From the NCBI GenBank assembly GCA_016934315.1, contig JAFGSY010000014.1, forward strand, positions 1 to 64,000: a stretch of DNA of 64,000 nucleotides, written 5' to 3'. Position 1 is the stretch's first letter, and every line of letters starts with the position of its first letter. The stretch comes from Candidatus Anaeroferrophillus wilburensis. GTDB taxonomy: Bacteria; Desulfobacterota; Anaeroferrophillalia; Anaeroferrophillales; Anaeroferrophillaceae. The notes beneath the pieces are model-generated. The model was not told the DNA's origin, did not search any database, and saw only the letters and a list, made by a program, of their open reading frames with translations. Below are positions 24,903 to 55,239 of the stretch, piece after piece. A program made the position numbers and the translations under genes.

Positions 24903-24930
24903 CATTTCAGCCCAGAGGAGATAGAAAGCC

Positions 24931-25185: not shown

Positions 25186-25192
25186 TATTCGG

Positions 25193-25210: not shown

Positions 25211-25234
25211 CAGCTTGCCTGGCTACTGAACAAC

Positions 25235-25250: not shown

Positions 25251-25324
25251 CACCCGTAAGCAGGCAGGCAGAAAGGTTTCATTCAAGGGCGCCTCGAGTC
25301 ACCCTTTGATTCTGACAGGTGCCC

Positions 25325-25906: not shown

Positions 25907-25996
25907 CCACTTAGCGTAAAACGTCTTTTTTTGCCGCTAAGTCTGCAACCAGCCCACGGACAAAAGGGTAACGCCAGGAGATCACCTGTCACAGAC

Positions 25997-27550: not shown

Positions 27551-28161
27551 TGACCCTTGAACAATCAGGCAAAGTCCTTGCCACCATCCTGCTGGCGGCG
27601 CTCCTCGTTGCCAGTTGCGGCTGTGCCGGCAAAGCGCCGCTGACCAAGATCAGCGGCCCCGTTGCTGAACACCGGCCCCTCTGCCGGGTTGCCCTTTTCC
27701 CCTTTATTGATGATCAGCAGGATACCGAGCGGGCGCTGCTGGCCTACCGGATCTTTCACCATGAACTGGTGAGAGCAGAGCTTTTCGAGGTGGAAACAGA
27801 AGGGGATGTGAGAACCTTCTTTATGCGCAATCGGATGATTCCCGGAGCAATCCTTGACAGTTTGATCTATGAAAAATGCGCCAACCAGCTTGGGGTTGAT
27901 GCCATCATTGTCGGCCGGATCACAGACGCGGGTATGGATGGCAATGCCAGCAAAGGCAGGAACCCCTATCTTAATCTCCATGTTGAGATTATTGATGTCA
28001 AGGCAAAACAGCCGCTGGTGGCCAGCTTTCTGCGCCGGGAAGGCTCCGACTACCGCAAGGCGTTGCATTTCGGCATTGTTGATACCATGACCGGGCTGCT
28101 CTCCCGCCTGTCCCGGGAAATCATTGCCGACTGGCAACACAAAGGAGTCCCGGGATGTTGA
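27550..28161 (+). CDS. CsgG-like lipoprotein, third paralog
   Basis: A 203-residue lipoprotein (LLVASCGC, lipobox cysteine near residue 23). The same domain as its neighbours is seen: RVALFPFIDDQQDTERALLAYRI, ELVRAELFEVETEGDVRTFF, QLGVDAIIVGRITD, and LHVEIIDVKAKQPL. It overlaps the preceding gene by one base and the following chaperone gene by seven, showing tight co-translation. As with the two other copies, it probably contributes to an outer-membrane assembly or export machine for the cytochromes in this operon. Confidence 0.7.
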   Translation: MTLEQSGKVLATILLAALLVASCGCAGKAPLTKISGPVAEHRPLCRVALFPFIDDQQDTERALLAYRIFHHELVRAELFEVETEGDVRTFFMRNRMIPGAILDSLIYEKCANQLGVDAIIVGRITDAGMDGNASKGRNPYLNLHVEIIDVKAKQPLVASFLRREGSDYRKALHFGIVDTMTGLLSRLSREIIADWQHKGVPGC

Positions 28162-33847: not shown

Positions 33848-33854
33848 TCTGGGT

Positions 33855-34976: not shown

Positions 34977-34977
34977 G

Positions 34978-36423
34978 ATGACCAATCACCCCGCATATCC
35001 GCAGTACCAGCGCAGTACGCCGGAAAGGCTCCTGATCCTGCTGATCCTCTTGATCCTCTGTTGCGGCTGCAACGGCTACCGGCCGCCGGTGCCGGCAGCA
35101 GACGAAGGGTTTACCGTCGCTCCCGACCAGATGCTCATCTCCCTCTACCTGGCCGCCGTGGGCAAGCCGGCTGCCAGGATAGCCGGAGAGCTTGCGGCCA
35201 TTGAGATCAGTGACGGTCGCCTCTGGCTGCCTCTGACCATGGAACCGGCAACCATCGACAACACCATGGGCCAGGGGCAGCAGCTGCTCGCCCTGGCCGA
35301 CCTGCCGCCGGCAGACTACACCCACCTGCGGTTAACTTTCAGCACAATTACCGTCAACGGCCAACCGTGGTTCGCGGAGACCATGCCAAGGGAACTGGAA
35401 CTACCCCTGGCCGGTTCCCTCCACTGGTCAGCCGGCAGTCATTGCTGCCTGTTCCTCGACTGGCACCAGATTTCCCTGACACCCCCTGACCCTTTCTGGC
35501 ATTCCTTTGCCGGCCGCTGGCAGGCTCTGCCCCTCAGCACCGATCTGGTGACGGTCATCTGTGACCGGCTGAATACCGTTTACCAGATCAGTCCGGACCG
35601 CAACCAGGTGGTCGGGACATTGCGGCTGCCAGGGGAACTCGGTGAATCGGCTTACAATGACCGGCGACAGCGCTGCTATATTCTTGGCATCGACAACCGG
35701 CGGCTCTACGTTATTGACGCCTCCACCAGCCGGCTGGTGGATGGTCTGCCCCTGCCGGCCGCCGTTGCCCCCCGGTTTCTGGTACTCTCGCCCGACGGCC
35801 GTTTTGCCTATGTCAGCGACCCACCGGCCAACCGGATCACCAAACTCAATCTCGAAAGCGGCTTTGTCGAAACCCAGAACGCCAGCATCCTGGGCCCAAG
35901 CCGCCTGCTCTATCGGTCAGGAGCTGACCGCCACGATCTAGTGGTGGCCGTTCCTGACGAACAGGCCGTCTATCTTTTGGATCCTGAAACCCTGGGAATC
36001 AGGCGGATTCTGGCCCTGAACCGCACCCCACGGCAGCTGCTTACCGTTGAGGACCGGCTCTATGTCACCGATGACACCAGCAGCACTGTCGGCGTCTACC
36101 AGTGGCCCGCCGGCACCCTGATTACCCAGATTCAGGTAGGACGGTCGCCTGGAGAGATGGCCGCCAACGCCGGCAGGCTCTATGTCTGCAACGTCGGTGA
36201 CGCCTCAATCTCCCTGATTCTGCCACGGCAAAACAGCGATTTTCGGCGCCTGCCGGCGGGTGCCACCCCGGTCGATTTGGCCATTTCACCTAACTGGCAG
36301 AAGCTCTATATCGCCAACCGTGACCAGAAAAAACTGACCATCAGGGATCTGCACACCGGCACCCTGCTGGCTACGGTACCTCTGGGGGATAAACCCCGGG
36401 AAATAACCTTATGGGAACCATGA
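34978..36423 (+). CDS. YVTN-type beta-propeller lipoprotein
   Basis: A 481-residue protein beginning one base after the OmcS-like stop, with AGGATTAGG before ATG. A signal sequence ends at a lipobox-like CCGC (about residue 28-31). Residues 45-190 form a beta-sandwich-like domain (DUF4382-like in appearance: LADLPPADYTHLRLTF), and the rest is a seven-blade-like propeller with PRFLVLSPDGRFAYVSDPPAN and AISPNWQKLYIANRDQKK blades. The same frame runs open far upstream inside the cytochrome gene, but that part lacks family character and is an overlap artefact. Probably an outer-surface adhesion or scaffold protein for the neighbouring filament cytochrome. Confidence 0.75.
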   Translation: MTNHPAYPQYQRSTPERLLILLILLILCCGCNGYRPPVPAADEGFTVAPDQMLISLYLAAVGKPAARIAGELAAIEISDGRLWLPLTMEPATIDNTMGQGQQLLALADLPPADYTHLRLTFSTITVNGQPWFAETMPRELELPLAGSLHWSAGSHCCLFLDWHQISLTPPDPFWHSFAGRWQALPLSTDLVTVICDRLNTVYQISPDRNQVVGTLRLPGELGESAYNDRRQRCYILGIDNRRLYVIDASTSRLVDGLPLPAAVAPRFLVLSPDGRFAYVSDPPANRITKLNLESGFVETQNASILGPSRLLYRSGADRHDLVVAVPDEQAVYLLDPETLGIRRILALNRTPRQLLTVEDRLYVTDDTSSTVGVYQWPAGTLITQIQVGRSPGEMAANAGRLYVCNVGDASISLILPRQNSDFRRLPAGATPVDLAISPNWQKLYIANRDQKKLTIRDLHTGTLLATVPLGDKPREITLWEP

Positions 36424-36503
36424 TCTGACTTGGATAACCTTACAAACCAGAAAGGAGGGAGGTGGGGCATATAACACATAACAACCTGAAACAATGCCGC
36501 TTT

Positions 36504-36531
36504 TGGTAATCTTCGGGCACATTGGTTACCA
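36504..36531 (+). promoter_or_regulatory. Inverted repeat, possible activator (enhancer) site
   Basis: TGGTAA at 36504-36509 and TTACCA at 36526-36531 are perfect complements separated by 16 bases, about 75-100 bases upstream of the -24 element. This is where sigma-54 activators normally bind. The same site was not found before the other promoters. Confidence 0.4.
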
Positions 36532-36602
36532 GAACAACGGCAACAATGCAAGCTAACCAGTTTATTTTATGGGAGTTTCACATAGAGAACTGATTAATTA
36601 TC

Positions 36603-36619
36603 TTGGCATATTTCTTGCG
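36603..36619 (+). promoter_or_regulatory. Sigma-54 promoter before second OmcS-like gene
   Basis: TTGGCATATTTCTTGCG matches the -24/-12 consensus: GG at 36605-36606, GC at 36617-36618, ten bases between. The predicted start is near 36630, 78 bases before the ATG. Confidence 0.72.
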
Positions 36620-36707
36620 TAACCAAGCATTGTATGCACTATCAGAAAACAATGCTGACAATAAACCTGGAAGCCAGGGAAAACCATATTCTACGTAGGA
36701 GAGAACA

Positions 36708-37787
36708 ATGACTAAAAAACTCGTAGCAACCACCGTGATCTTTTTAATGGCACTGGTGATCGGCCCCTCAAGTGCCTGGTCGGTAGGCGGACAGTGTGCC
36801 GATTGCCATACCATGCACGACAGCCAGGGGGGAGCTGCTGTAGCTGTTGGTGGTCCCCATGACAGGCTGATAAGCGCCACCTACAGCAGCACTAATCCGT
36901 GCCTCGGATGCCATGGTGGCGATGATTACCAAAGTGGCGATGCAACGCCTTATGTTTTAGGAACCAACCTTCTTGAGTCAGACGACCTGGCAGGAGGAAA
37001 TTTTGCCTATCACGCAACTGGTGATGCCTACGTCCACAATGTTCTGGGCTCGTCTGTCGACGATGATGCCACTCTTGCAGCCGTTCCGCCGGGCTATGAC
37101 AGCCTCAACTACCCTGATCCGGATGCATTTGTCAGATATACGGGCGGCACAACTACTCGGCTGCAGTGCGCCGGCACCTACGGCTGCCATGGCAATGCCA
37201 CTAACAGTGACCCGTACGATGCCATTTCCGGCGCCCACCATGGCAATGCCAGTGGCACCCTGACCACCGCAGACACGGTCGGCAACAGCTACCGTTTCCT
37301 TTATGGTGTAATGGGCATTGAGGACAGTGACTGGGAAAATACGGCCGACGACGCTGATCACAACCAGTATCATGGTATTCACCGCACCGATGATGTCTCG
37401 CCCGATTCAGCAACAATCAGCTACTTATGCTGCCAATGCCACGGGGACTTCCATGAAGCAGGGGCATCCGGCGGTTCACCCTGGACCCGCCACCCCACTG
37501 ATTTTGACTTGAGTGAGGCCACCGGAACGGAATATGCCAGCTATAATGCTGACAACTCATACAGTATCATTGCCCCGGTTGCCAGTGACGTAACAACCGA
37601 TGGCGAAGTTGAAGCAGTTGTTCTTGATGAATCGGGAGAATATGATGCCATCGTCACCTGCCTCTCCTGCCATCGCGCCCACGGTTCAGCCTATCCTGAT
37701 CTGCTGCGCTGGGATTATTCTGCCATTGATGCAGGAGGAGGAGATGGTAATGTAGGCTGCTTCATCTGCCATACGACCAAAGACTAA
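36708..37787 (+). CDS. OmcS-like hexaheme cytochrome, candidate nanowire subunit (copy 2)
   Basis: A 359-residue protein with a cleavable signal peptide (ending SAWS, about residue 24), five CxxCH motifs and the same CX5CH (QCAGTYGCHG) as its paralog at 33855. The first heme segment CADCHTMHDSQGG, the CLSCHRAHGS segment and the C-terminal CFICHTTKD match the OmcS order. It is rich in Gly, Ser, Thr, Asp and Tyr with few lysines and arginines, typical of secreted filament cytochromes. It is monocistronic: its own sigma-54 promoter, a GGAGAGAAC ribosome-binding site and a strong terminator downstream. Its composition and regulation suggest high, condition-dependent expression. Confidence 0.82.
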   Translation: MTKKLVATTVIFLMALVIGPSSAWSVGGQCADCHTMHDSQGGAAVAVGGPHDRLISATYSSTNPCLGCHGGDDYQSGDATPYVLGTNLLESDDLAGGNFAYHATGDAYVHNVLGSSVDDDATLAAVPPGYDSLNYPDPDAFVRYTGGTTTRLQCAGTYGCHGNATNSDPYDAISGAHHGNASGTLTTADTVGNSYRFLYGVMGIEDSDWENTADDADHNQYHGIHRTDDVSPDSATISYLCCQCHGDFHEAGASGGSPWTRHPTDFDLSEATGTEYASYNADNSYSIIAPVASDVTTDGEVEAVVLDESGEYDAIVTCLSCHRAHGSAYPDLLRWDYSAIDAGGGDGNVGCFICHTTKD

Positions 37788-43681: not shown

Positions 43682-43998
43682 CCCTCCCCCTTCAAGACTG
43701 CTCACCCTGACCACCGGCAGCAAAAGGACAGCAACCAGGCGCCGTTTGCCGGCAAACACCAGCGCGTCAACAGAAGCAACATTATTCTTGCCAAGCAATC
43801 ACCATTGCCACTATAGTGTCAACATCAGGATAAAGCGACTGCTGGCTGCCCTGAAAAGTCAAGACCCGGCTTTCTTTTGATAGATTGCCCATGGTACACT
43901 GTATATTTCATTGACGCTGTGCCCAAAGCGCGGTAACGTTGAGCCGAAAAGCAAACAAACAGCGAACCAACGACTCATAACTCCTGTTGATATGCAGC
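43682..43998. other. Intergenic region before HEAT/Hsp70 module
   Basis: A 317-base gap between kinase and HEAT-protein genes. A possible sigma-70 promoter is TTGCCA (43788-43793) and TATAGT (43812-43817) with an 18-base spacer. No gene is seen. Confidence 0.4.
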
Positions 43999-46044
43999 AT
44001 GCCTGAGCAACCAATCACCATCCCAACAGCTGAAATCATTACCGATCTGCTTATTGACAATTGGGAGTTACGGTGGCAGGTCCTGGATATCTTTCACCAG
44101 ACCAAATCCCGGGTTAAAAATTTTTCCCAAACCTCCCCCTATCACCGGTCGATCGCCAAGCTCTGCCATCAGATCATCAGCAACCTCCAGAGTGAAAACG
44201 ACCAAAACCTGCACACCATCACCCTGGCGGTTTATTTCCTGGGCGGCATGGAGCAGGTTTTCAGGCTGCTGAAAAAGCTTGATCTTGAAGCCCCGCCCCT
44301 GGCTCACGAGGAGTTCAAAACCCTGCAGGCAAAAATCCTCAAGGGCAACCGGGAACATACTATCTATGACTACTTTCTGCTGCTCTTTGGCACCGGAGAT
44401 TTTCCCGACAGCGCCCTGAGCCTGAGCATCAGATTTTTTACCTCCGATGAACTGGTCAGCCTTTTTTGTGCCATCTCTTCGCCTGTCCAACAGGCCCTGG
44501 CGTTCGATCTACTTATGCAGCGCTACCCCGGCACCAACCTGAACCACGTACTGACGGACAACAACCTGGCACTCCTGACCAGCAACCCCAGACTGCTGCC
44601 CCATCTCAAACTTCCCCTGGAACAAGATCTCTTAGCTACAGCAACCGACATGGCCCTGGAGCTCTTCAGACGGCAGCAACACCTTGAAGCGGCGGTGGGT
44701 GCCTGCGTGCAGTTGCAGATTACCAGTGCCATTCCTCAGATCAGCGCCCTGGTGAATGATAAGGAGATGCGTCCCATAGCCTTGGCCGCTCTCGGTCGCC
44801 TGGGATCAGAGGAATATCTTGGCACCCTGGTGGCGGCCGGCCGGTCATTCTTCAGCAGCAAAAAAACGGAAGCAGCCAACCTCCTGGGTGCCTACCAGGG
44901 ACAACAGGCTATAGAGTGCCTCAAAAAGCTCGCAAACTCCCGCAACCGAAAAATCAGGGAATATGCCCTTGCCTCCCTGGAGCAAACCGGACATCCTCAG
45001 GCACTAAGTGCCATGGTCAGCCGGTTCAGCAGTGCCGCCACCAAGGAAAAAAAGCAGATTCTGGCAATCATCGCCCGAACCCGCTGGCCGAACATCCCCG
45101 AATCACAAGGCGAGAGAATTGCCGCCCAGGCTACCGACAGCGCCCTGGCACCGGAGCTATTCCAGGCACTGGAGGCAATAGGGCATGGTGCGCTGCTCCT
45201 GGAAACACTGCAAACGTTTCAACAACCGCTCAAAACCGGGCACCAGAAAACCATGTGTCTCTTTCTCGGCCAGTATGCCGCCAAATCGGCGATCAGAAAA
45301 GCATTGCTGGCCCACTTGTTCCACCCTGACTGGGGATTTTCCTACCACCTGCTCTGCCGGATGCAAAGTCACCTGACCATCAGGGAGTTTCCCGCCCTCT
45401 TTCAGCTGCTCGAACTGCGGGAGTCCCATAAGCCGCTGACCATCAAGGAACGCCTTGAACTCGGTAAAGGCGATGATGAGTTCATCCCGGCCATGTGCCG
45501 CTACCTGAACCAGCACCCCCCGATAGCGGAACAGTTGCTTTTCGCCCTTACCAACCACATTTTGACCCGCAAGCCGCCGCTGAAACAGCATGAACTGACA
45601 ACCATTTTTGCCGGTCAGGAAAAAGGACTGCAGCGGTTGGTTAGTGAATCTCCCTTTGAAATGACTGAAGTTCCACCGGAAAACCTCTATATCCTGCTGC
45701 TCTTCTGCCGCTATCTAGATGAAATTACCGTTGACGGCGCCAGTTGTTTTGCGCTAGTAGTGAACCTTACCAGACGCTACAGTGGATTTTTCAGCCAGCA
45801 TATCTGGTCAATAATTTACGCGATTTTACAGGCGGAACGAACCACTACCGACACCGCCCTCCTGCCTTATCTTGATCAGCTGCTTGAGGTTCTTCGGGGA
45901 CGCGATGGCGTCATCGAACTGCGAACCATGGCCTTGACCATAAAAAAGCGGATATTTTCCATGTCCCGGGATTTGGTTGTTTTTATCGAGTCCTCACGCT
46001 ACCGTGATCTGCAAATCTTCAAGGTAGAGAAAATCCATGGGTAA
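43999..46044 (+). CDS. Large HEAT-repeat-like protein of Hsp70/Ycf46 module
   Basis: A 681-residue, mostly alpha-helical cytoplasmic protein with no signal peptide. Tandem helix pairs are clearest at about 225-345 (IPQISALVNDKEMRPIALAALGRLGSEE, AIECLKKLANSRNRKIREYALASLEQTG), typical of HEAT-like repeats. No enzymatic motif is visible and I do not recognise a named family for the whole chain. The last eight bases overlap the start of the Hsp70-like gene, so the two are translated together. It may be a scaffold or adaptor for the chaperone-like partner. An in-frame TTG 12 bases upstream is an alternative start. Confidence 0.7.
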   Translation: MPEQPITIPTAEIITDLLIDNWELRWQVLDIFHQTKSRVKNFSQTSPYHRSIAKLCHQIISNLQSENDQNLHTITLAVYFLGGMEQVFRLLKKLDLEAPPLAHEEFKTLQAKILKGNREHTIYDYFLLLFGTGDFPDSALSLSIRFFTSDELVSLFCAISSPVQQALAFDLLMQRYPGTNLNHVLTDNNLALLTSNPRLLPHLKLPLEQDLLATATDMALELFRRQQHLEAAVGACVQLQITSAIPQISALVNDKEMRPIALAALGRLGSEEYLGTLVAAGRSFFSSKKTEAANLLGAYQGQQAIECLKKLANSRNRKIREYALASLEQTGHPQALSAMVSRFSSAATKEKKQILAIIARTRWPNIPESQGERIAAQATDSALAPELFQALEAIGHGALLLETLQTFQQPLKTGHQKTMCLFLGQYAAKSAIRKALLAHLFHPDWGFSYHLLCRMQSHLTIREFPALFQLLELRESHKPLTIKERLELGKGDDEFIPAMCRYLNQHPPIAEQLLFALTNHILTRKPPLKQHELTTIFAGQEKGLQRLVSESPFEMTEVPPENLYILLLFCRYLDEITVDGASCFALVVNLTRRYSGFFSQHIWSIIYAILQAERTTTDTALLPYLDQLLEVLRGRDGVIELRTMALTIKKRIFSMSRDLVVFIESSRYRDLQIFKVEKIHG

Positions 46045-47554
46045 ACTGATATCAATCTTTTTCGGCAACGCCTTCATCCTTCCCTACGCCCAGGATGAAG
46101 GGAGCAAGAAGGTTGAGGCCATCCAACTCGATGACATCTCGGTGCCCATTGCCCTGAACAACCAATGGACCAATGAAAAAATCTATCCCATTCCGGCAAT
46201 GATCTGCTTTGACGATGATCGTATCTATTACGGTCATGAGGTCCGCAGCCATAAAAAGTTCTTCTCGCCCAGCACCTTTCTCTACATGAAGCAGTACATG
46301 GCCAAAAACCAGCATCTACCCCGCATCCTCGGCGACCAGGAAATCTCCATCTTCCAAGCTGCGGAAACCCTGATGATCAGCATTATTGACCGGATCAACG
46401 AATTATACGGGGCTGAAAACATCTCCATGTATGTCTTTCCGGTTCCTCCCAAGGCCTACGATATTTTTGCCCATTGGATTGAACAGTTCTGCTTCCGCAC
46501 TGGCCTGGTTAATTTTAAGATTGTCGATGGGGGGGTGTGTGCGCTGCTGGCCTACGGCCTCGGCCATGAGTTGGGAACCAACTTCATGTATCTTCTTTTC
46601 GGCCCCATGAGTCTTGACCTCTACATCCTCAAGGTCGAGGAAACCAACAGTGAACCACGACTGAAAAGTGTTCTGCTGGGGGGGATGAACAAGAACTATG
46701 GCAGCATCGACATCGACAAAACCCTGCAGGAGGAGCTGGCTGACTACCACATAAACCTGCGGCAGACCGGTCAGATTGTCCACCACCTGATTACTCACCC
46801 GGTCTACGAAGAAACCTTCAACGATCGCCCCTTGCGCTACACCCAAACCGAACTCCACACCTTGCTGGACGACAAGGGATACGGCCAGGAGCTGAAAAAT
46901 ATCCTCACAGATCTCATCGACCTTGCCTCGGGCATCGGGGTAACCTATGAAAGCGTCCAGTATGTCCTGTGCGCCGGTTCAAGCATCCAGATTCCCTATT
47001 ACCGCACCATCCTACAGTCATTCTTCGGCAATAAGCTGCTTTTTGACAAAGCCCATAACGCCATCCCGGTGGGAGCTCTGACCTACCTCCAGCGCCAGGA
47101 CGCCGGCAGCACGATCAGAGCCAATTATGCCCTTCGTAGCCGCACTGCCAAAGGTGAAGGATATAAGTTCGATATTATCATTCCCAAAGGCACCCCCTAT
47201 CCCACCCACCAAGGGGTGACGACCGTTATTGCCAACAGTTTTTTTGATGGCCAGCATGAAGTATCCCTGGATATCTTCCGCATGGATATCCCCGAATCCA
47301 CTGATGACCGGGAAATTGTCATGACCGAACATGGCACGCTCCAGGTTGAAGAACACATTCCTGAAGAGCAGAAAGTATTTACCAACGAGGCAAAACCAGA
47401 AATCATTAAAATCGATCCCCCAGGGAAAAGCGGTGAGCGACGGCTGGAGATTACCTTTGATGTCAGCATCAACAGGGATCTTCTGATTACCGTCAAGGAT
47501 TTGCGCCGCAATATGATTACCTGGAAACGCAAGAAATCCATCCGTTTGGAGTAA
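46037..47554 (+). CDS. Divergent Hsp70-like protein
   Basis: A 505-residue protein with actin/Hsp70-like organisation. The N-terminal phosphate loop, normally GIDLGTT, reads ISIFFGNAF. The second half of the ATPase contains YVLCAGSSIQIPYY, equivalent to the LvGGsSriP segment. Residues about 375-505 resemble a DnaK substrate-binding beta-sandwich (FDIIIPKGTPYPT, RRLEITFDVSINRDLLITVKD) with no alpha-helical lid or C-terminal tail. Loss of conserved nucleotide residues suggests an altered or absent ATPase. It lies in a module with a HEAT protein, a Ycf46-type AAA+ ATPase and Ycf35. Confidence 0.75.
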   Translation: MGKLISIFFGNAFILPYAQDEGSKKVEAIQLDDISVPIALNNQWTNEKIYPIPAMICFDDDRIYYGHEVRSHKKFFSPSTFLYMKQYMAKNQHLPRILGDQEISIFQAAETLMISIIDRINELYGAENISMYVFPVPPKAYDIFAHWIEQFCFRTGLVNFKIVDGGVCALLAYGLGHELGTNFMYLLFGPMSLDLYILKVEETNSEPRLKSVLLGGMNKNYGSIDIDKTLQEELADYHINLRQTGQIVHHLITHPVYEETFNDRPLRYTQTELHTLLDDKGYGQELKNILTDLIDLASGIGVTYESVQYVLCAGSSIQIPYYRTILQSFFGNKLLFDKAHNAIPVGALTYLQRQDAGSTIRANYALRSRTAKGEGYKFDIIIPKGTPYPTHQGVTTVIANSFFDGQHEVSLDIFRMDIPESTDDREIVMTEHGTLQVEEHIPEEQKVFTNEAKPEIIKIDPPGKSGERRLEITFDVSINRDLLITVKDLRRNMITWKRKKSIRLE

Positions 47555-47560
47555 TGCACC

Positions 47561-47773
47561 ATGAGCGAAAAACATCATCGGAAGAAAAGCCAGCCCGACC
47601 CTCCGGCAGCTCCTGCCTGTGAAGTGGACACCGTCCACATCAGCATCGGCACGAACGGCGAGATTAATGCCTGGGGCCTGGAGCAGGAATCCGAAGAAAC
47701 CATCCTCAAACGAACCGGCAACCAGAAGCTTGCCGACCGGCTGCTGAATATGTCCTATACACTTTGCGGATAA
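47561..47773 (+). CDS. Small conserved-module hypothetical protein
   Basis: A 70-residue protein beginning with a basic histidine/lysine-rich N-terminus and continuing DTVHISIGTNGEINAWGLEQESEE. The start lies six bases after the Hsp70-like stop with GGAG upstream, and the stop is 13 bases before the AAA+ gene. I do not recognise a family. Its tight spacing inside the operon supports it being real. Confidence 0.65.
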   Translation: MSEKHHRKKSQPDPPAAPACEVDTVHISIGTNGEINAWGLEQESEETILKRTGNQKLADRLLNMSYTLCG

Positions 47774-47786
47774 CGGGGGATAGCTG

Positions 47787-49274
47787 ATGAATTTTCTGGA
47801 ACATTTAAACGTTATCATGCGCAGCAACCATTCGCTGATCAACGTCGTCACTTATGAGGAGAACCGGTTTATCAACATGATGGCTGAGTCACCGCTGTTC
47901 AAGGATAAAAATATCATTCAATGGGATCTTGCCGACGGTTTCAAGGCCATTCAGGGCGATTTGTCACAAATAAAAAAGACTGACCGCCCTGACCCGCTTG
48001 TCTGCCTACGGGAAATTGACAAATCAAAGGTGAGCACCATTTTTATTTTGCGCGACTTTCATCACCACTACCGGGAAAGCATTGTCGTCCGAGCACTGCG
48101 CAATCTTCACTATGAACTGCAGTTTACAAAGAAAGTCATCATCATCCTGACCCCGGCGGCATCGCTGCCCCTCGAACTGCGTGAAGATGTGCTGCAAATG
48201 GAGTTGCCGCTCCCCACCTACGAGGAGATTGAAAAACAGCTTGAATCGATTATTGCCAGCACCTCCCAGCATCGGCCGCCGACCCCCCAATTACGGGAAA
48301 AACTGGTTGAGTCCACCCTGGGGCTGTCACTGGAAAACATCAAAACCCTGTTCGCCCAGATTATTATCACCCATAACGTCATCGATGAGCGGGCTATCGA
48401 GATCGTTCTCCAGGAAAAACGGAATATTATCCAAAAAGGTGAGATTCTGGAATTTTTTCCGGTGCGCGAGAGCCTCAATGATATCGGCGGCCTGGAAAAT
48501 TTGAAAAAGTGGCTGCGCAAACGGAGTAAGGTATTCACCCGTAAAGCCAAGGATTACGGCTTGCCGGCCCCCAAAGGAATTCTGATCATCGGCATCCAGG
48601 GAACAGGTAAAAGTCTGACTGCCAAGGCGACTGCCGGCCTGTGGAAACTTCCCCTGCTGCGCATGGATCTCGGCAAGGTATTCGGCAGCCTGCTGGGGGA
48701 ATCGGAGGGCAACCTGCGTAACGCCATCCGCCTGGCAGAAACCATCTCGCCCTGCATCCTCTGGGTTGATGAATTGGAAAAGGCTTTTGCCGGCTCCAGT
48801 GGCTCAGCCGGAGACAGCGGCACCTCCGCCCGTATCTTGGGGACCTTCCTCACCTGGATGCAGGAAAAGACCAAACCGGTTTTTATTATTGCCACCGGCA
48901 ATGATATTACCTTGCTGCCGCCGGAACTGATGCGCAAAGGCCGCTTTGATGAAATCTTTTTCGTTGACCTGCCATCCACCAGTGAACGTGAAGCAATTTT
49001 CAAGGTTCACCTTGAAAAGGTTCGACCTGTTATCCGTCAGTTCGATTTGGAAGAGCTGGCAGGTGCGACAGATAAGTACAGCGGCGCTGAAATTGAACAG
49101 ATTATTTATGACGCTATGTTCACCGCTTTTGATGACAACCAGCGGGAATTCACCGCCGATGACATTAAAGCCAGCATTCAGGAAATTATTCCCATTTCCC
49201 GGTTTATGAAGGAAAGGATTGAGGGCCTGCGTCAATGGGCGGTTTCCCGGACCCGCAAGGCCAACAGCGAATAA
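47787..49274 (+). CDS. ycf46: Ycf46-type AAA+ ATPase
   Basis: A 495-residue protein: an N-terminal alpha/beta domain (1-200) with the look of an inactive or modified AAA domain, followed by a full AAA+ core with Walker A GIQGTGKS (269-276), Walker B CILWVDE (about 322-328), and the second-region-of-homology arginines in PPELMRKGRFDEIFFVDLP. A C-terminal lid (YSGAEIEQIIYDAMFTAF) is present. Organisation and motifs match the cyanobacterial/plastid Ycf46 family, whose biochemical role is poorly known. GGGGGA lies before ATG. Next genes encode Ycf35 and DUF2997 proteins. Confidence 0.85.
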   Translation: MNFLEHLNVIMRSNHSLINVVTYEENRFINMMAESPLFKDKNIIQWDLADGFKAIQGDLSQIKKTDRPDPLVCLREIDKSKVSTIFILRDFHHHYRESIVVRALRNLHYELQFTKKVIIILTPAASLPLELREDVLQMELPLPTYEEIEKQLESIIASTSQHRPPTPQLREKLVESTLGLSLENIKTLFAQIIITHNVIDERAIEIVLQEKRNIIQKGEILEFFPVRESLNDIGGLENLKKWLRKRSKVFTRKAKDYGLPAPKGILIIGIQGTGKSLTAKATAGLWKLPLLRMDLGKVFGSLLGESEGNLRNAIRLAETISPCILWVDELEKAFAGSSGSAGDSGTSARILGTFLTWMQEKTKPVFIIATGNDITLLPPELMRKGRFDEIFFVDLPSTSEREAIFKVHLEKVRPVIRQFDLEELAGATDKYSGAEIEQIIYDAMFTAFDDNQREFTADDIKASIQEIIPISRFMKERIEGLRQWAVSRTRKANSE

Positions 49275-49336
49275 ACCATAATGGGGAAGAAGCCGCCCCC
49301 CTACGAATGACTGCCAAAGAGCACAAGGAGGTAGCA

Positions 49337-49714
49337 ATGTCTCATTTCACCAAGGTAGAAACAAAAATCACCGAACTGCTTTTTCTCAAGAAAGCCATCG
49401 CTGACATGGATCTCGCTTATCAGGAAGGCGATTTGAAAGCCAAAGGATGGCTGTGGAAAAAAGCCAAAGCCGACCTGCTGATTCCCACGAAAAGCGGCTA
49501 CGATATCGGCTTTAAATTCAACGGTTCTTCCTACGACGTGGTCGCCGACTGGGATTCCATCAACGATGTTTCCCAGGACACCTTTATTAACGAACTGAAT
49601 CAGCGCTATGCCTACAATGTCGTTTCCGATACCATGGCCCAGCAGGGTTTTACCATCGCTGAGGAAAAAACCGAAGACGGCACCATAAAGATGACCATGC
49701 GTAAGGCATCCTGA
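49337..49714 (+). CDS. ycf35: DUF1257 protein (Ycf35-like)
   Basis: A 125-residue protein beginning MSHFTKVETKITELLFLKKA with the DUF1257 hallmarks SGYDIGFKFNGSSYDVVADWD and QRYAYNVV, and a C-terminal TMAQQGFTIAEEKTEDGTIKM. A very strong AAGGAGGTAGCA site fixes the start; the longer open frame upstream is not coding. DUF1257/Ycf35 is conserved in cyanobacteria and plastids and has no established function. Its placement directly after a Ycf46-type ATPase and before DUF2997 is a recurring arrangement as far as I recall, suggesting a complex. Confidence 0.88.
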   Translation: MSHFTKVETKITELLFLKKAIADMDLAYQEGDLKAKGWLWKKAKADLLIPTKSGYDIGFKFNGSSYDVVADWDSINDVSQDTFINELNQRYAYNVVSDTMAQQGFTIAEEKTEDGTIKMTMRKAS

Positions 49715-49752
49715 TAAGAGAAACGATAGACATCCTATGGACGGAGATGATC

Positions 49753-49947
49753 ATGGAAGAGATACAGATTGAAATTGACCAGCATGGCAAGGTCCAGATA
49801 GAGGTTTCCGGGGTTGAGGGAGGAAAGTGCCTTGACTTAACCAAGACCATGGAACAGCTGCTCGGGGGGGAAATCAGTCAGCGTGAATTTACCCGGGAAT
49901 ACTATATTCAGAATCCCCTTACCCAGGAAGAAAAGGTCTCCGGCTAA
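49753..49947 (+). CDS. DUF2997 family protein
   Basis: A 64-residue protein with the DUF2997 pattern: IQIEIDQHGKVQIEVSGVEG, GKCLDLTKTMEQLLGG, and a C-terminal TREYYIQNP. The second of two in-frame ATG codons (49753) is best placed behind GGACGGAG. DUF2997 proteins usually accompany DUF1257 proteins, and here they lie 38 bases apart. Function unknown; probably a small partner of Ycf35. Confidence 0.82.
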   Translation: MEEIQIEIDQHGKVQIEVSGVEGGKCLDLTKTMEQLLGGEISQREFTREYYIQNPLTQEEKVSG

Positions 49948-49964
49948 AAACAACTATATTTTTC

Positions 49965-49992
49965 TTGACATCTGCCGATAATACGGTATATT
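49965..49992 (+). promoter_or_regulatory. Sigma-70 promoter for small membrane protein
   Basis: TTGACA (49965-49970) and TATATT (49987-49992) with a 16-base spacer, about 88 bases upstream of the next start codon. Confidence 0.65.
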
Positions 49993-50079
49993 CTTCTCAT
50001 ATGGTGCGGTAAAGGTTGATGGACGATTGTTCTACCATGCACCAGTATTCACAAAGCGGTGGGAAACCCGGGGGAAATC

Positions 50080-50466
50080 ATGTCATACCAGAATTACATG
50101 TCAGCTTATGCCGGCTACGCAGGTGATAGCAAGCCCTCCGCCATGGAGATCGTTCAGAGCATCAGTTTTTTGACCAAGCTTGGAGCGTTGTGCCTGCTGA
50201 CCGGAAAAATTTTCATGGTAGTTGCCATCGCCGCTGTGTTTATTCCGGCATTGAATGCCTACGCCATCCCCTGCACCATCATCTGGGGAACGCTGGTGTC
50301 AACAACGATTATTCTGTGTTCCGTTGATCACTATACCAAAAAACACAAAGCTGAGCTGGCAGCCGAAACCGACCCTACGATTGCCGCCTTGAATGCTCTC
50401 CAGTACAGCTACACCCCACAAGAACTGGACCACGACAAAACAGACCGTCAGCGGGTTGCTGCTTAA
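50080..50466 (+). CDS. Small two-helix membrane protein (copy 1)
   Basis: A 128-residue protein with CGGGGGAAATC before ATG. Two hydrophobic segments (about 32-58 and 62-88) enclose AVFIPALNAYAIP, followed by CSVDHYTKKHK and a polar tail. It is a clear paralog of the protein at 50769. No known family is recognised. It has its own sigma-70 promoter and terminator, so it is a single-gene unit next to the Ycf46/Ycf35 module. Confidence 0.68.
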   Translation: MSYQNYMSAYAGYAGDSKPSAMEIVQSISFLTKLGALCLLTGKIFMVVAIAAVFIPALNAYAIPCTIIWGTLVSTTIILCSVDHYTKKHKAELAAETDPTIAALNALQYSYTPQELDHDKTDRQRVAA

Positions 50467-50497
50467 AATAACACCGCTCCACCGACAATAACAAAAA

Positions 50498-50526
50498 GGG
50501 AAGCCTTCACCAGGCTTCCCTTTTTT
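50498..50526 (+). terminator. Rho-independent terminator
   Basis: A 9-bp stem (GGGAAGCCT / AGGCTTCCC), five-base loop and six T, directly after the first small membrane protein gene. Confidence 0.9.
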
Positions 50527-50768
50527 ATGTCATTTTTACTTCTAAAACAGATAAAAACTCATAATACAATATAACTCATAGTTAATATTCAATAAAAAAA
50601 AATTTTATAACACAGTTTTCACCTTGACTTTTAAAGTGAATATAGCTTAATTCACATTAAGCGATCCTCAATGAACAATGGGTCATAACTTGTTAAATAC
50701 TTAACAAGTTTAAAAAAAAACAACAAATTATTAGATGCAAGAAAGTGTTTCCATCAAGGGAGGTCGCC
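50527..50768 (+). promoter_or_regulatory. AT-rich regulatory region with perfect 24-bp palindrome
   Basis: This stretch is far more AT-rich than the rest of the window. It contains AACTTGTTAA (50687-50696) and its exact complement TTAACAAGTT (50701-50710) around ATAC. It also has GTGAA / TTCAC separated by ten bases (50636-50655), and TTGACT at 50624-50629 as a possible -35. It probably holds the operator and promoter of the gene at 50769. Confidence 0.5.
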
Positions 50769-51197
50769 ATGAAAGGAATGATGCCCGTAAGGGGGTACGC
50801 CAGGCAGGAAACAAGCAACCACGAAACCGATTTCAAAGATCTCCTTAAAAGCATTTCCCCCCTCACCAAGATCGGCGCAGTCTGCTTCGTCATCGGCAAG
50901 TTGACGGGCGTTCTGGCCATACCGGCAGTTTTCATCCCATCCTTGAATGCCTTTGCCATTCCCCTGATTATCTGCTGGGGTACTTTAATCCTGGCCACTA
51001 TTGTCATCTGTTCGGTGGATCATTTCGTTGTCAAGAAACGACAACTGGGAAGCGAACAGGCAAAAGCCGAGGAGGTGCAGAGCTGGCTTGCCGACCACCC
51101 GGAACTCCGGGAGCAGATTCTGGCTGAGCTGCAGCAGGCAGCCCAGAGCGACACCCCAGAAAACGATAAAGTCATCAGCATGTCTTCCTACCGCTAA
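50769..51197 (+). CDS. Small two-helix membrane protein (copy 2)
   Basis: A 142-residue paralog of the protein at 50080, sharing SISPLTKIGAVCFVIGK, AVFIPSLNAFAIP, CWGTL and ICSVDHF. The C-terminal tail is longer and acidic (WLADHPELREQILAELQQA). AGGGAGG lies eight bases before ATG; a GTG 24 bases earlier is less likely. Function unknown. Separate promoters and an AT-rich palindromic control region suggest that each copy responds to a different signal. Confidence 0.68.
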   Translation: MKGMMPVRGYARQETSNHETDFKDLLKSISPLTKIGAVCFVIGKLTGVLAIPAVFIPSLNAFAIPLIICWGTLILATIVICSVDHFVVKKRQLGSEQAKAEEVQSWLADHPELREQILAELQQAAQSDTPENDKVISMSSYR

Positions 51198-51305: not shown

Positions 51306-51755
51306 TCAGCCAAGCTGGGTTGCCAGCGCCCGGCCATAATCCTGACAAGCTTTGATAATTTCAGGGTCATCAGCCTGCAGTTTAGCCTCCAGGGCATTAA
51401 AGGAACCGAGATTGATAAGGTTCATTTTCAAAACATACTCCATCGTATCAGCAATAACCTTTGGTGCGTCGCCGGAATGGGTATAAGCACCAAAGGCTCC
51501 CGCTGCTTTGCCGGCCAAGCCGGTCTTTTCTGCCAAGAACAGAAAGGTTTTAAAATTCTGGGTCATATCCCGGTGATAGGTGGGACAGCCAAACATATAG
51601 CCATCGTAGCCCTGTAGATCTTCCTCACTTTTTACCGCACTGACTTTTTTCAATTCGACTTCACAGCCACCGATGCGAACCCCTTCTGCAATATAGTTGG
51701 CCATTTTTTCCGTATTGCCCGTCCGACTGAAATACACGATAAGGACCTTTTTCAT
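51306..51755 (-). CDS. Flavodoxin
   Basis: A 149-residue single-domain flavodoxin of normal size. The FMN phosphate loop SRTGNTEKMA (about 10-19), the GCPTYHRDMTQ loop and the GAYTHSGDAP segment around the isoalloxazine ring are visible. It carries electrons at low potential in the cytoplasm; here it follows the selenoperoxiredoxin gene (47 bases apart) and may supply reductant in oxygen or peroxide defence, which is inference. GGAGAGGAG precedes the ATG. Confidence 0.88.
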   Translation of the reverse strand: MKKVLIVYFSRTGNTEKMANYIAEGVRIGGCEVELKKVSAVKSEEDLQGYDGYMFGCPTYHRDMTQNFKTFLFLAEKTGLAGKAAGAFGAYTHSGDAPKVIADTMEYVLKMNLINLGSFNALEAKLQADDPEIIKACQDYGRALATQLG

Positions 51756-51802
51756 TTTTTCTCCTCTCCGTCTGGGATAGCGTCATTGTTGCGACAGCGC
51801 CA

Positions 51803-52519
51803 TTATTCAGGCTTCCACACTTTCCAAACATTGCCCACAAGATCCGGTCCCGGCTTCAGCACCGGCTTGCCGGGCGTCCAGCCTGAGGGGCATACTTCGC
51901 TGCCACCGGTTTTGCGTACATGCTGAAAAGCCTTCACTTGCCTCAGGGTTTCTTCCACACTGCGGCCGACCGGCGGCGTCAGCACTTCCATCGCCTGGAC
52001 AACGCCATCAGGGTCGATGAGAAAGCGACCCCTGACATCGACCCCGGCACCTTCATCGTAGACACCGTAGATTCTTCCCAGATTGCCACCTGCATCAGAA
52101 AGCATGGGAAAGGGCACACCGCCGTCGATCATTTTACCCAGTTCGCCTTCCTGCCACATCTTATGAACAAAAACGCTGTCAACACTGACGGACATAACTT
52201 CAACATCCAGTTCCTTGAATTCCTTATACTGTGCGGCGACCGCCGTCAATTCCGTCGGTCAGACAAACGTATAGTCGCCGGGATAAAAGCAGATGAGGAC
52301 CCATTTGCCAAGATAATCGGCCAGCTTAACCTGACCGAAATCGCCATTCATAAATGCCGGAGCGGTGAAATCAGGGGCTTTCTGGCCAATCTTTACTGCG
52401 GTCATATCCTTCTCCTTCTTGATCTGATCATTAGTTTCGGTTGCTTGCTTTTCTTCCGGCTCCCCCACAACGGTACCGGTTCCTGCGGCGCACCCTATAC
52501 CTTTCTTCTTCTCTGCCAT
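51803..52519 (-). CDS. Selenocysteine-containing peroxiredoxin (UGA read as Sec)
   Basis: Two minus-strand segments that look separate form one AhpC/Prx protein when the TGA at 52259-52261 is read through. The context is DYTFV-TGA-PTELTAV, where peroxiredoxins have the peroxidatic cysteine (FVCPTE), so the stop codon is most likely selenocysteine. A hairpin with GGUC at its tip starts 17 bases after UGA, matching the bacterial SECIS layout. A C-terminal VCPSGWTPGK supplies the resolving cysteine. Two starts are possible: ATG at 52519 (GGAGG nine bases upstream; adds a 38-residue linker-like extension with one cysteine) or ATG at 52405 (excellent AAGGAGAAGGAT), which puts Sec at residue 49, the usual position. 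It reduces peroxides. Confidence 0.87.
52219..52261 (-). promoter_or_regulatory. Candidate SECIS element and UGA selenocysteine codon
   Basis: After the UGA, the minus-strand RNA can fold ACGGC-GGUC-GCCGC with the GGUC tip at 52238-52241. The spacing from UGA to GGUC is 17 bases, close to that of E. coli fdhF. Confidence 0.7.
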
Positions 52520-52605
52520 CGGCAAACCCCTCCTTCCGCCAACTACTGCAATGAACTCAGTTTGGCATCAATGTTCATTGAAAGAACTGGTGAGAAAATT
52601 GCCAG

Positions 52606-52713
52606 CTAAAAAAACGTTCCGTTGCCAAAAGAAATAACCAGGCCTAAGCCAGCAACCACCAGAAACCAGACAACCATCAGGGCCATCACCAGTGAACCAA
52701 ATTTTTCCAACAT
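52606..52713 (-). CDS. 35-residue single-helix membrane peptide, CydX-like
   Basis: A short frame starting at ATG 52713 behind GGAGGGGTAGAA and ending at TAG 52606. The product begins MLEKFGSLVMALMVVWFLVV and continues with a glycine-containing hydrophobic stretch, forming one membrane helix. It begins three bases downstream of the second CydA-like gene, the usual place of CydX/CydS-type small subunits of bd oxidases. Sequence similarity to CydX is not claimed; position, size and topology support the call. Confidence 0.72.
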   Translation of the reverse strand: MLEKFGSLVMALMVVWFLVVAGLGLVISFGNGTFF

Positions 52714-52715
52714 TT

Positions 52716-53831
52716 CTACCCCTCCTCCACTGACAATGTCCCCCGACCAAGCTTGAAAGCAATAATGATCGGGTAGGCGATAACGATCAGACCCATAACA
52801 AAGGTCACCAGAAACAACGCCGTACTGCCCAGGTCAAGGCTGACCGGATACGTATAGATCGAATAGTCATGACGACCAAGATAGTTCATCCGCAGGACTT
52901 CACGGGCGGTGGACATTCCCAGCACCGCCACCAGGGAAACCAATCCCAGGGGGACTGCATAACGATCAGGGTTCTGTTCGGCCATCATCAGGACAACCAG
53001 CACCAGGGTACCCAGAGCGGCACCTACCAGAAATAGAGGATTAAGATAGAAGCTGAACTGCAGCGGCACACTGAACAGCCACCAGAAACCGATAACAACC
53101 TGGACCATGGCGGCAATCTTGGCCAGCCGGGCGCCGGACCTGCCGACCCAATCAAGATATCCCTGATCAATATCGGTGCGCGGCCGGAAATACCAGGCGT
53201 ACAGCATCATATAGATGCCGATATTGATGAAAGCCGGCACCATAAAATGGAGAAAACGGCCATGCTCGAAAGCGTACATCCCGGTACCCAGGGTTTTCAG
53301 GCTGTCATTGACAATGTACCAAGCCTTCCACTGTTCAGGCAGTAGCTGCTGCATGGCAAAAACACTCATGATCCCGCCGGCAAAAACAACCATGATCAGA
53401 GCAGCAATGCCGAAGAAGCCAAATCCAGCCGGGTTTTTCTGCCGTTTCAAATAAAAAACATAGCAGGACAGAAAACCAAGAATAATAATCAGCAGAAAAG
53501 CCATCGCCCACCAGGCTGAAAGGGTATTGGCAACATACCAGAAGGGATCATAGATCACCTGGACGAACAGCAGCGGCGCGACCCCCAGAACAATCGCCAG
53601 AGACAGATTGACGGTGCTCGCCCGGGCCAGTCCTTTTGAAAGCCGCTGGCCGTATTCCCCGCCTTTAAAGTGGTGATACACCGCCATAAAAATACCGCCG
53701 ACCACCAAGTTTACCACCACGATATGCAGGGCAAAGGTTAAAACCATCAGCCCCTGAAACAACCACGGGAAAAAGGGTACGCCCATGGGGTCACGTAAAT
53801 TTATTAATGCACTCTGCAGATCCATTATCAC
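52716..53831 (-). CDS. CydA-like cytochrome bd-type subunit, second copy (CydA')
   Basis: A 371-residue integral membrane protein with about nine helices. The N-terminal segment TFALHIVVVNLVVGG places a histidine where CydA has its heme b595 ligand region, so this protein resembles a CydA half rather than CydB. It lacks the heme c motif and the long quinol loop of its partner. It follows the partner gene by 52 bases on the same strand. Pairs of CydA-like proteins without CydB are known in a branch of the bd oxidase superfamily. Whether this complex reduces oxygen is not settled by sequence. Confidence 0.75.
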   Translation of the reverse strand: MIMDLQSALINLRDPMGVPFFPWLFQGLMVLTFALHIVVVNLVVGGIFMAVYHHFKGGEYGQRLSKGLARASTVNLSLAIVLGVAPLLFVQVIYDPFWYVANTLSAWWAMAFLLIIILGFLSCYVFYLKRQKNPAGFGFFGIAALIMVVFAGGIMSVFAMQQLLPEQWKAWYIVNDSLKTLGTGMYAFEHGRFLHFMVPAFINIGIYMMLYAWYFRPRTDIDQGYLDWVGRSGARLAKIAAMVQVVIGFWWLFSVPLQFSFYLNPLFLVGAALGTLVLVVLMMAEQNPDRYAVPLGLVSLVAVLGMSTAREVLRMNYLGRHDYSIYTYPVSLDLGSTALFLVTFVMGLIVIAYPIIIAFKLGRGTLSVEEG

Positions 53832-53883
53832 AACCTCCGATAATTTCTTTAAAATATCCTTAACACACCGGCCGCTTCTTATC

Positions 53884-55239
53884 CTACTGATCTCCGCTGA
53901 CTACCCACCGGGGATCAACCTCCTCACCCACCAGCGTCGCCATAAAGGCGCTGGCTGCCCGGCGCTCCACATCACTACCGGCAAAGGCCGGCATATAGGG
54001 ATAGTCGCCCAGTGATTCGAGGAAAGAGTAAAGGTCTTCAGCTGCCGTGGTGCCCATGGCGGCAACCAGCTTCGGCAGGGAGCTGCGCCCGTCGACTTCC
54101 ATCGTATGACAGATGACGCACTGCAGCTTGGTGATTGTCTCGCCGGCTTTCAGGTAGTTTTCGGCGGTAATCTGGCGCCAGCCATCGGGAATAAAATAAT
54201 AGTCAGCCAGCATCCCCGTTTCGCTGAACCGGTCAACTTCCGAGGATATACCCTTGGCCTCCAGGTCATGGGCAATCACCTGGTTGCTGTACATGTAGCC
54301 GGGAATCAGGTAGGGACGCCGGCCAATTTCCCGCACACTTTCACCGCCACCAATGCCCACAAAGATCACCAGCGTCATACCGATGGTTACCAGCGGTTTG
54401 GCAATTCCGGTTACTCCCAGCAGCAGGACAGCGAAATAGATCCCGGTAATGGCGGCAACCGCCAGGGAAATGGTAAACATGGTTTTAGCATAGGCAAAGG
54501 CAGCAATGATATCCATCGTCCGTGCCGGCAGCTTGGCATAATACCAGAAACCGAACAGCGCCGCCCCGGCCAATCCGGCCAACCCCCAGATACCGGCGGT
54601 TTTAATGACCGTTTTCTTGGTCTCCTGGTCTTTGAGAAAGCTGGCCACGACGGCAGCATAGGCACCGGCAATGGCAAACATCATCGAAGTGCGGAAAAAC
54701 AGCTGCGGCCAGTAGGTAGGATTAAAGAAACCATCAAAAAAACCGCCCGTTTCAACCCATTTTCCCGGAGTCATCATAAACGCCAGAATGCCGGTGATAA
54801 TCACCATGCTGATCCAGGCGGCCATGGCATAAATCAGGCCGATACGCAGATGGGCCTTCTGGGAAATTTTACCGAAAGTGTAGTAATAGACATAGATGGA
54901 AACAATCTCGATAATAAAAAATACCCATTCGGTCGCCCAGCCCCAGACATAATTATGAATCAGACTGGAAATGGCCCGTGGGCTGATAATCGTGCTGGCA
55001 AACCAGATGCCCACTCCGGTGAGCGAACCGGTAACAAAGCAGAAAACCAGTACCAGCAGGGTAAACTTCTTGATAAATTCCAGCAGCGCCGGCCGGTCTT
55101 CCTTATAGGCTTTGCGTTCCAACAAGTAGGTCATCCAGAACCCACCGGTCGCCAGATGACAGGGGAGAATATGAAAAGTCGCAATCAAGGCGATAATCAT
55201 CCCTCCGCCGATCCCAGGAAATTCAAAAATCGGATACAT
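53884..55239 (-). CDS. CydA-like cytochrome bd-type subunit with C-terminal heme c
   Basis: A 451-residue membrane protein with about eight to nine helices. ATFHILPCHLATGGFWMTYLLE corresponds to the first CydA helix, and GRRPYLIPGYMYSNQV (about 306-321) corresponds to the GRQPW loop of CydA. After the last helix a soluble extension carries one heme c motif CVICH (about 374-378) and continues as a small cytochrome c domain. The fusion of a bd-like core to heme c suggests that electrons come from a cytochrome c rather than, or as well as, quinol. Followed by a second CydA-like gene, a 35-residue peptide, a selenoperoxiredoxin and flavodoxin, it looks like part of an oxygen-detoxifying operon. 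Confidence 0.8.
   Translation of the reverse strand: MYPIFEFPGIGGGMIIALIATFHILPCHLATGGFWMTYLLERKAYKEDRPALLEFIKKFTLLVLVFCFVTGSLTGVGIWFASTIISPRAISSLIHNYVWGWATEWVFFIIEIVSIYVYYYTFGKISQKAHLRIGLIYAMAAWISMVIITGILAFMMTPGKWVETGGFFDGFFNPTYWPQLFFRTSMMFAIAGAYAAVVASFLKDQETKKTVIKTAGIWGLAGLAGAALFGFWYYAKLPARTMDIIAAFAYAKTMFTISLAVAAITGIYFAVLLLGVTGIAKPLVTIGMTLVIFVGIGGGESVREIGRRPYLIPGYMYSNQVIAHDLEAKGISSEVDRFSETGMLADYYFIPDGWRQITAENYLKAGETITKLQCVICHTMEVDGRSSLPKLVAAMGTTAAEDLYSFLESLGDYPYMPAFAGSDVERRAASAFMATLVGEEVDPRWVVSGDQ

Follow-up and report, generated by a model that had tools for sequence, protein, structure and literature searches.

The biochemical role of Ycf35 and Ycf46, proteins conserved in cyanobacteria and in the plastids of algae, is poorly understood. 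In cyanobacteria duf2997, ycf35, and fed7 form a conserved cluster, and in Synechocystis the loss of Fed7, which binds a DnaJ-like protein in the two-hybrid system, causes sensitivity to oxidative stress, metals, and iron limitation (PMC4284462). The Synechocystis ycf46 operon (slr0373-slr0374-slr0376) responds to iron deficiency and oxidative stress (PMC7496141). Type III CoCoNuTs contain degenerate Hsp70-like proteins and HEAT repeats, and one variant includes a p97-like AAA protein in which the second domain alone is active (PMC11090510). Here we describe a module of eight genes in the window, a stretch of 64,000 nucleotides of the uncultured anaerobe Candidatus Anaeroferrophillus wilburensis (Desulfobacterota; contig JAFGSY010000014.1) that is part of a 161-kb contig in a genome of 2.7 Mb and 98% completeness. 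The genes encode a HEAT-repeat scaffold, a lidless Hsp70-like protein, a 70-residue protein, an AAA+ ATPase, the DUF1257 (Ycf35) and DUF2997 proteins, and two small membrane proteins. The module is real and conserved, and because related Hsp70-bearing blocks occur in three bacterial phyla it is taken to be a real and apparently undescribed chaperone-type machine; no published description of DUF1257 and DUF2997 together with Hsp70 was found in literature mostly limited to PMC. On balance we think it probable that the operon encodes a protein-remodelling machine that is driven by the AAA+ protein, uses the scaffold for recruitment, and has the Hsp70 as its clamp.

A sequence-only reading of the window had proposed a dedicated module of motor, clamp, scaffold, and adaptors, a proposal that would require the same genes to stand together elsewhere. 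The linkage does recur in other genomes and phyla: a co-occurrence search found the Hsp70-like, AAA, DUF1257, and DUF2997 genes linked in seven families of the window's phylum, in Chloroflexota (three genomes), and on a plasmid of Pseudanabaena. Of 394 genomes sampled from the window's phylum, 35 contain DUF1257. In 19 of the 35, which represent the seven families, an Hsp70-like gene lies on the same contig within ∼5 kb, and 13 loci are without one and lie mostly amid small phage-type genes; among the remainder, one genome has the Hsp70-like gene on a broken contig and two contigs are too short to tell. The Hsp70-like protein is present in 18 of the 22 genomes of the window's order and in one distant member of the phylum. 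Among genomes of the order at least 85% complete, 12 carry the Hsp70-like protein together with DUF1257, and two carry neither.

Gene order and phylogeny point the same way. The order HEAT-Hsp70-70-residue protein-AAA-DUF1257-DUF2997 found in the window's order becomes AAA-DUF1257-DUF2997-HEAT-Hsp70 in the G041 clade, with the two blocks swapped, and a third arrangement in the phylum (L057) comprises a canonical Hsp70, DUF2997, AAA, DUF1257, an FGE-domain scaffold, and a radical S-adenosylmethionine (SAM) protein. In a midpoint-rooted tree of 58 AAA proteins all those linked to Hsp70 group in one clade (support 0.962), which also holds three members without a visible Hsp70 (L058, on a cut contig, L108, and L122). 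Tree distances are correlated between Hsp70 and AAA (r = 0.915), Hsp70 and DUF1257 (0.914), and AAA and DUF1257 (0.905), with permutation p ≤ 0.001. Chance adjacency of unrelated genes is rejected on account of the recurrence in three phyla together with this correlated inheritance, and the single clade of Hsp70-linked AAA proteins further upholds the proposal of a dedicated, conserved module. Gene order, homologies, loss of motifs, folds, and co-inheritance are direct observations in what follows.

In Chloroflexota DUF1257 is found in five of 400 genomes. Hsp70 accompanies it in three, namely an Anaerolineaceae genome (L103) and two relatives, where AAA, Hsp70, DUF1257, DUF2997, radical-SAM, and WD40-scaffold genes form one cluster. 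A Pseudanabaena galeata plasmid has the order GrpE-Hsp70-DUF1257-(two genes)-DUF2997-AAA-WD40 scaffold, the two interposed genes (L107 6430-8003) matching the HEC-02A/B candidate defence pair. A Geminocystis plasmid (L108) carries an ATPase-RloB pair upstream of DUF1257. The three genes AAA-DUF1257-DUF2997 also occur with no Hsp70 in phage-like loci and on Planktothrix, Paenibacillus, and Bacillus licheniformis plasmids. On a Rhodococcus plasmid the gene between AAA and DUF2997 is assigned to DUF1257 by an iterated hidden Markov model (HMM). On the Treponema succinifaciens plasmid pTRESU01 a DUF1257 gene (L109 6001-6408) lies inside a contractile-tail cluster, and genes for an AAA and a 4Fe-4S protein lie elsewhere on the same plasmid (L131).

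A survey of viral contigs with the AAA alignment recovered at least 508 AAA relatives, some on contigs >300 kb (L133-L212), and in the 80 best viral loci DUF1257 and/or DUF2997 lies within 6 kb in 22 cases, and a radical-SAM gene is present in 10. A scan of the viral contigs with a single DUF1257 protein found nothing, and tblastn found no phage records with DUF1257. AAA-DUF1257-DUF2997 is the core that travels everywhere, with the Hsp70/scaffold layer an addition in one AAA clade. That this core is common in phages and plasmids lacking Hsp70 raises the alternative that a cassette derived from a phage or plasmid landed beside Hsp70 and HEAT genes with which it shares no function. The recurrence of the same partners in three phyla, the single AAA clade, the correlated divergence, and the block-swapped gene order already disfavour such a history, which we regard as very improbable.

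The mobile distribution bears also on the main rival explanation, an anti-phage or conflict system in which the HEAT, WD40, or FGE scaffolds would sense an invader product and the AAA and Hsp70 proteins would amplify the signal or dismantle the target, a mode of action put forward for CoCoNuT and MoxR-vWA systems. Carriage on plasmids and phages, the HEC-02 pair inside the Pseudanabaena module, the RloB gene beside the Geminocystis module, the variable scaffold architecture, as in published nucleoside triphosphate (NTP)-dependent conflict systems (PMC7159879), and the combination of degenerate Hsp70-like, HEAT, and p97-like AAA proteins in one variant of type III CoCoNuTs (PMC11090510) all agree with defence. 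However, the module is unlike a defence island within the window's order, because it is single-copy, conserved in 18 of the 22 genomes, and flanked by constant neighbours within a family. The operon holds no nuclease, protease, toxin, or other effector, and neither McrB nor McrC; PADLOC gives only matches to the IetA AAA domain, a single HEAT model, and, for the HEAT protein, Csx21 (two, both weak), with no partner protease. The retention of ycf35 and ycf46 in plastids also argues against defence, which we consider unlikely.

The preferred reading, a protein-remodelling machine, assigns the AAA protein the role of motor. The second half of the AAA protein has the elements of an active AAA domain, with Walker A (GIQGTGKS), Walker B (ILWVDE), sensor 1 (ATGND), and arginine fingers (RKGRFD) conserved throughout the relatives aligned. 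The first half lacks Walker A and is homologous to the second (hhalign 90%, E = 1.7e-6); Walker A/B and arginine fingers are intact in the second half alone. The AlphaFold2 model (predicted local distance difference test, pLDDT, 89.2) matches the p97/Cdc48 D1-D2 tandem over its full length in Foldseek, including substrate-engaged forms (E = 6.6e-23). Model, fold match, and the comparison of N- and C-terminal halves agree on two tandem AAA+ domains of which the first is degenerate, and on the model the protein resembles the p97/Cdc48 tandem with a dead first ring. The cyanobacterial AAA proteins included in the comparison are plasmid-borne only.

The window Hsp70-like protein taken alone has no Pfam match and a weak match to HscA (2e-5), and the family profile matches DnaK at 6e-27; a separate canonical DnaK is encoded elsewhere in the genome, and the motifs were read from an alignment with it. 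Family profile and alignment establish homology to the nucleotide-binding domain (NBD) and the β substrate-binding subdomain (SBD-β). In all members aligned SBD-β is retained, and the SBD-α lid and the conserved hydrophobic interdomain linker are absent. The phosphate motifs DxGTxxS/T and DxGGGT are replaced in the window protein by IFFGNAF and LLFGPMS, and the proteins of its clade read IFFGN or IFFNN, L/HFG or QSG, and AGSS or GLSL. With neither catalytic aspartates nor adenosine motif left, the window-clade protein is predicted to be a pseudo-ATPase whose ATPase activity has probably been lost. By comparison, the relatives in Chloroflexota, Pseudanabaena, and G210 retain DFGTSNT, DFGGGT, and GG-containing adenosine motifs, and those of the G041 clade retain DLGNYNT and DFG. 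The earlier description of a degenerate Hsp70-like clamp thus suits the window clade, in which a lidless Hsp70 has degenerate nucleotide motifs, but does not extend to relatives that keep the ATPase motifs. By losing its ATP site, the Hsp70 of the window clade may have become a passive clamp for an AAA motor, a natural instance of such a conversion.

The scaffold varies. An iterated HMM shows the window HEAT protein to be homologous to a ∼585-residue HEAT protein beside Hsp70 in the G041 clade (hhalign 91%, E = 9e-7). HEAT genes accompany the module in the window's order and in that second clade of Desulfobacterota. Scaffolds differ elsewhere: one half of the Hsp70-linked AAA clade has HEAT scaffolds and the other half has WD40 or FGE domains. 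WD40 and FGE scaffolds have a homologous domain in common (97.5%), and a single scaffold family throughout was rejected, as the HEAT group and the WD40/FGE group give no match between them. The scaffold tails are similar within each group, and a conserved tail might possibly serve as the Hsp70 ligand.

The DUF1257 protein scores 92.1 bits against PF06868 (gathering cut-off 22.2), and its confident AlphaFold2 model (pLDDT 90.6) found no PDB fold match at E ≤ 0.001, nor did its sequence. The DUF2997 protein scores 60.6 bits against PF11211 (gathering cut-off 24.1), has an invariant GxxGxxC (Gly-x2-Gly-x2-Cys) in an alignment of 20, and has no significant relatives in the PDB. The 70-residue open reading frame is a real gene, since it recurs in each of the ten aligned relatives, where the WGL core and the C-terminal LCG are invariant; the latter suggests that the terminus itself is used, in binding or modification. 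The idea that this protein is a DUF2997 paralogue was not supported (hhalign 17%, over 17 columns only).

All eight genes are open on the forward strand between 43999 and 51197, where the sequence-only reading had placed them head-to-tail with overlaps or short gaps, an arrangement that the coordinates and the Pfam assignments of four families corroborate (Table 1). The six genes from HEAT to DUF2997 look like one operon, given intergenic distances of −8 (an overlap of HEAT and Hsp70-like genes), 6, 13, ∼62, and 32 bp in succession. The membrane-protein genes may be a separate unit, because a promoter-like site precedes them and a strong terminator-like hairpin lies between them. The two were correctly described as paralogues that follow the operon; each forms one hairpin, and they are probably not simply on the same transcript. 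The G041 clade too has small membrane proteins downstream of Hsp70, but homology of the window pair to these was rejected (hhalign 1%), topology alone being alike.

Table 1. Features of the window and of related loci. All Pfam assignments (HEAT_2, AAA, AAA_lid_3, DUF1257, DUF2997) exceed the curated cut-off.
Feature	Position	Strand	Evidence or remark
Promoter-like site ahead of operon	43788..43817	+	10/12 consensus, 18-nt spacer; consensus only, weak
HEAT-repeat scaffold protein, 681 aa	43999..46044	+	Pfam HEAT_2 2e-9
Lidless Hsp70-like protein, 505 aa	46037..47554	+	Family profile vs DnaK 6e-27
70-aa protein, order-specific	47561..47773	+	Alignment of 10 orthologues
AAA+ ATPase, 495 aa	47787..49274	+	Pfam AAA 9e-29 and AAA_lid_3
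DUF1257 (Ycf35) protein, 125 aa	49337..49714	+	Start ATG 49337; Pfam DUF1257 3e-26
DUF2997 protein, 66 aa	49747..49947	+	Pfam DUF2997 1e-16
Promoter-like site before first membrane-protein gene	49965..49992	+	11/12 consensus; consensus only
Small hydrophobic membrane-hairpin protein 1, 135 aa	50059..50466	+	Hydropathy, paralogue alignment; conserved in order
Terminator-like hairpin	50493..50525	+	14-bp perfect stem, T-tail; between the two membrane-protein genes
Small hydrophobic membrane-hairpin protein 2, 150 aa	50745..51197	+	Paralogue of protein 1; hydropathy, paralogue alignment
NrdG-like radical-SAM genes	L057 6239-6853; L103 12184-12750; L120 8783-9352; L121 8703-9275; L129 8293-8874; L063 5113-5721		
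Aldehyde:ferredoxin oxidoreductase genes by Hsp70-type module	L103 6021-8183; L120 15852-18020; L121 13239-15404		
Aldehyde:ferredoxin oxidoreductase genes and MoeA by Hsp70-type module	L057 6914-13210		
Family f2 genes downstream of module	L075, L076, L077, L081, L083, L084		465-aa protein, 12-haem cytochrome, 128-aa protein
7-haem MtrC-like protein, 1207 aa	Same family f2 loci except L083		Contig ends in L083

Hints about clients come from neighbouring genes. An NrdG-like radical-SAM gene (Fer4_12) recurs beside AAA-DUF1257-DUF2997 in chromosomes, plasmids, and viral contigs; because the proteins of five relatives score 88–119 bits against NCBIfam TIGR02491 (NrdG), whose cut-off is 126, they are regarded as NrdG-like but distinct. 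Aldehyde:ferredoxin oxidoreductase genes adjoin the module in the three Chloroflexota genomes and, with MoeA, in G210, and in G405 the single copy is the one beside the module. Six genomes of the window's order, all in family f2, have a 12-haem cytochrome downstream of the module, and five of them also a 7-haem MtrC-like protein, a set that is possibly an extracellular electron-transfer conduit. In the window, genes reading as a flavodoxin, a peroxiredoxin, and two membrane cytochrome subunits (minus strand) lie beside the module at 51306-55239, and since homologues adjoin the module in G004 (L079) they are taken as family-level synteny. Several multihaem cytochrome genes (12, 12, 26, and 16 CxxCH motifs, and others) lie at 20930-37787.

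These neighbours, together with the cyanobacterial Fed7 cluster, the stress sensitivity caused by Fed7 loss (PMC4284462), and the response of the ycf46 operon to iron and oxidative stress (PMC7496141), suggest a narrower form of the preferred reading, in which the module would be a maturation or repair factor for redox metalloproteins such as multihaem cytochromes, tungsten/molybdenum enzymes, and Fe-S proteins. However, the neighbours vary by lineage and some reflect vertically inherited synteny, phage and plasmid copies occur without such enzymes, and the radical-SAM gene of the module is missing from the window genome, where the best PF13353 match reaches 36 bits vs 94–115 for module members. 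We consider a function so restricted distinctly unlikely; the neighbour evidence agrees with redox clients as a hint and proves none.

In the broader reading of a remodelling machine, the AAA+ protein would be the motor, a p97/Cdc48-like hexamer with a catalytically dead first ring, and its working second ring would pull on or unfold clients. DUF1257 and DUF2997 would act as small AAA partners, either adaptor or gating subunits, since both are found with the AAA family on chromosomes, on plasmids, and in phages. Clients would be recruited by the HEAT protein, or elsewhere by the WD40 or FGE-domain protein, and the lidless Hsp70 would hold an exposed client segment or the scaffold tail, acting in the window lineage as a nucleotide-independent clamp and in the relatives probably as an Hsp70 that cycles, in one case with a GrpE of its own. 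Tethering of the assembly may be the part of the small membrane proteins, and the best guess for the clients is oxygen- or metal-sensitive redox proteins. The physical assembly, the threading of clients, the adaptor roles, and the identity of the clients are what we infer.

Several observations weigh against this scheme. The AAA pore loop, GSLLGESE, lacks the aromatic residue typical of strong unfoldases. Of the 80 viral AAA relatives, 58 have no detectable DUF1257 or DUF2997 within 6 kb, so that the partnership does not extend to all of the AAA family. Common organism history accounts for part of the correlation of tree distances. The redox neighbours are not the same from lineage to lineage; with 20 aldehyde:ferredoxin oxidoreductase genes in G210, one nearby copy is weak evidence there, and of the seven in the window genome none adjoins the module. 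We offer only tentatively, as a rather doubtful extension, the wider proposal that a machine spread over several phyla, with a half-dead p97-like ring, DUF1257/DUF2997 cofactors, a lidless Hsp70, an exchangeable scaffold, and often an NrdG-like radical-SAM protein, matures or repairs redox metalloproteins, and that cyanobacterial and plastid Ycf35/Ycf46 are its remnant core.

Among known systems, p97/Cdc48 (VCP, VAT) has the D1-D2 tandem fold and, in the second domain, the classical AAA motifs and lid that are seen here, but the module AAA protein is smaller, lacks an N-domain, has a first domain dead and without Walker A, carries the non-aromatic pore loop, and is bacterial and encoded with DUF1257 and DUF2997. 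DnaK and HscA are homologous to the module Hsp70-like proteins in NBD and SBD-β, whereas the module proteins lack the α lid and a VLLL-type linker and, in the window clade, the phosphate and adenosine motifs. Type III CoCoNuTs, which with the HSP70-containing conflict systems are the closest designs in print, are alike in the degenerate Hsp70-like and HEAT proteins and, in one variant, in a p97-like AAA protein with one active domain, but their defining McrB/McrC-type and coiled-coil proteins are not in the window operon and DUF1257 is unmentioned in PMC11090510. Membership of the CoCoNuT/McrBC group was rejected, as neither a McrB-like GTPase nor McrC (DUF2357) is among the operon genes by Pfam; a PF09823 (DUF2357) search of the window genome gave no match, and neither did any control genome. 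NTP-dependent conflict systems likewise join chaperone ATPases to repeat scaffolds, sometimes with a radical-SAM protein, but those with HSP70/GrpE or MoxR-vWA use a GTPase or MoxR plus vWA (PMC7159879), neither of which was found here. The phage and plasmid AAA-DUF1257-DUF2997(-radical SAM) cassettes have the same AAA family over its full length and the same two small proteins, and differ in that no Hsp70 or scaffold was seen and that the NrdG-like radical-SAM gene is often present.

The cyanobacterial duf2997-ycf35-fed7 cluster and plastid Ycf35 differ in that ycf46 lies in another operon in cyanobacteria (PMC7496141), the published cluster lists no Hsp70, and no scaffold is reported. Even so, the Pfam families DUF1257 and DUF2997 are the same, and there too a chaperone link exists through the binding of a DnaJ-like protein by Fed7 (PMC4284462). 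The earlier argument against a purely photosynthetic role holds: the occurrence of these families in an operon with Hsp70 and a scaffold, in non-photosynthetic organisms, argues that they make up a remodelling machine of chaperone type, and the role of Ycf35 and Ycf46 can now be tested in compact systems from bacteria and phages.

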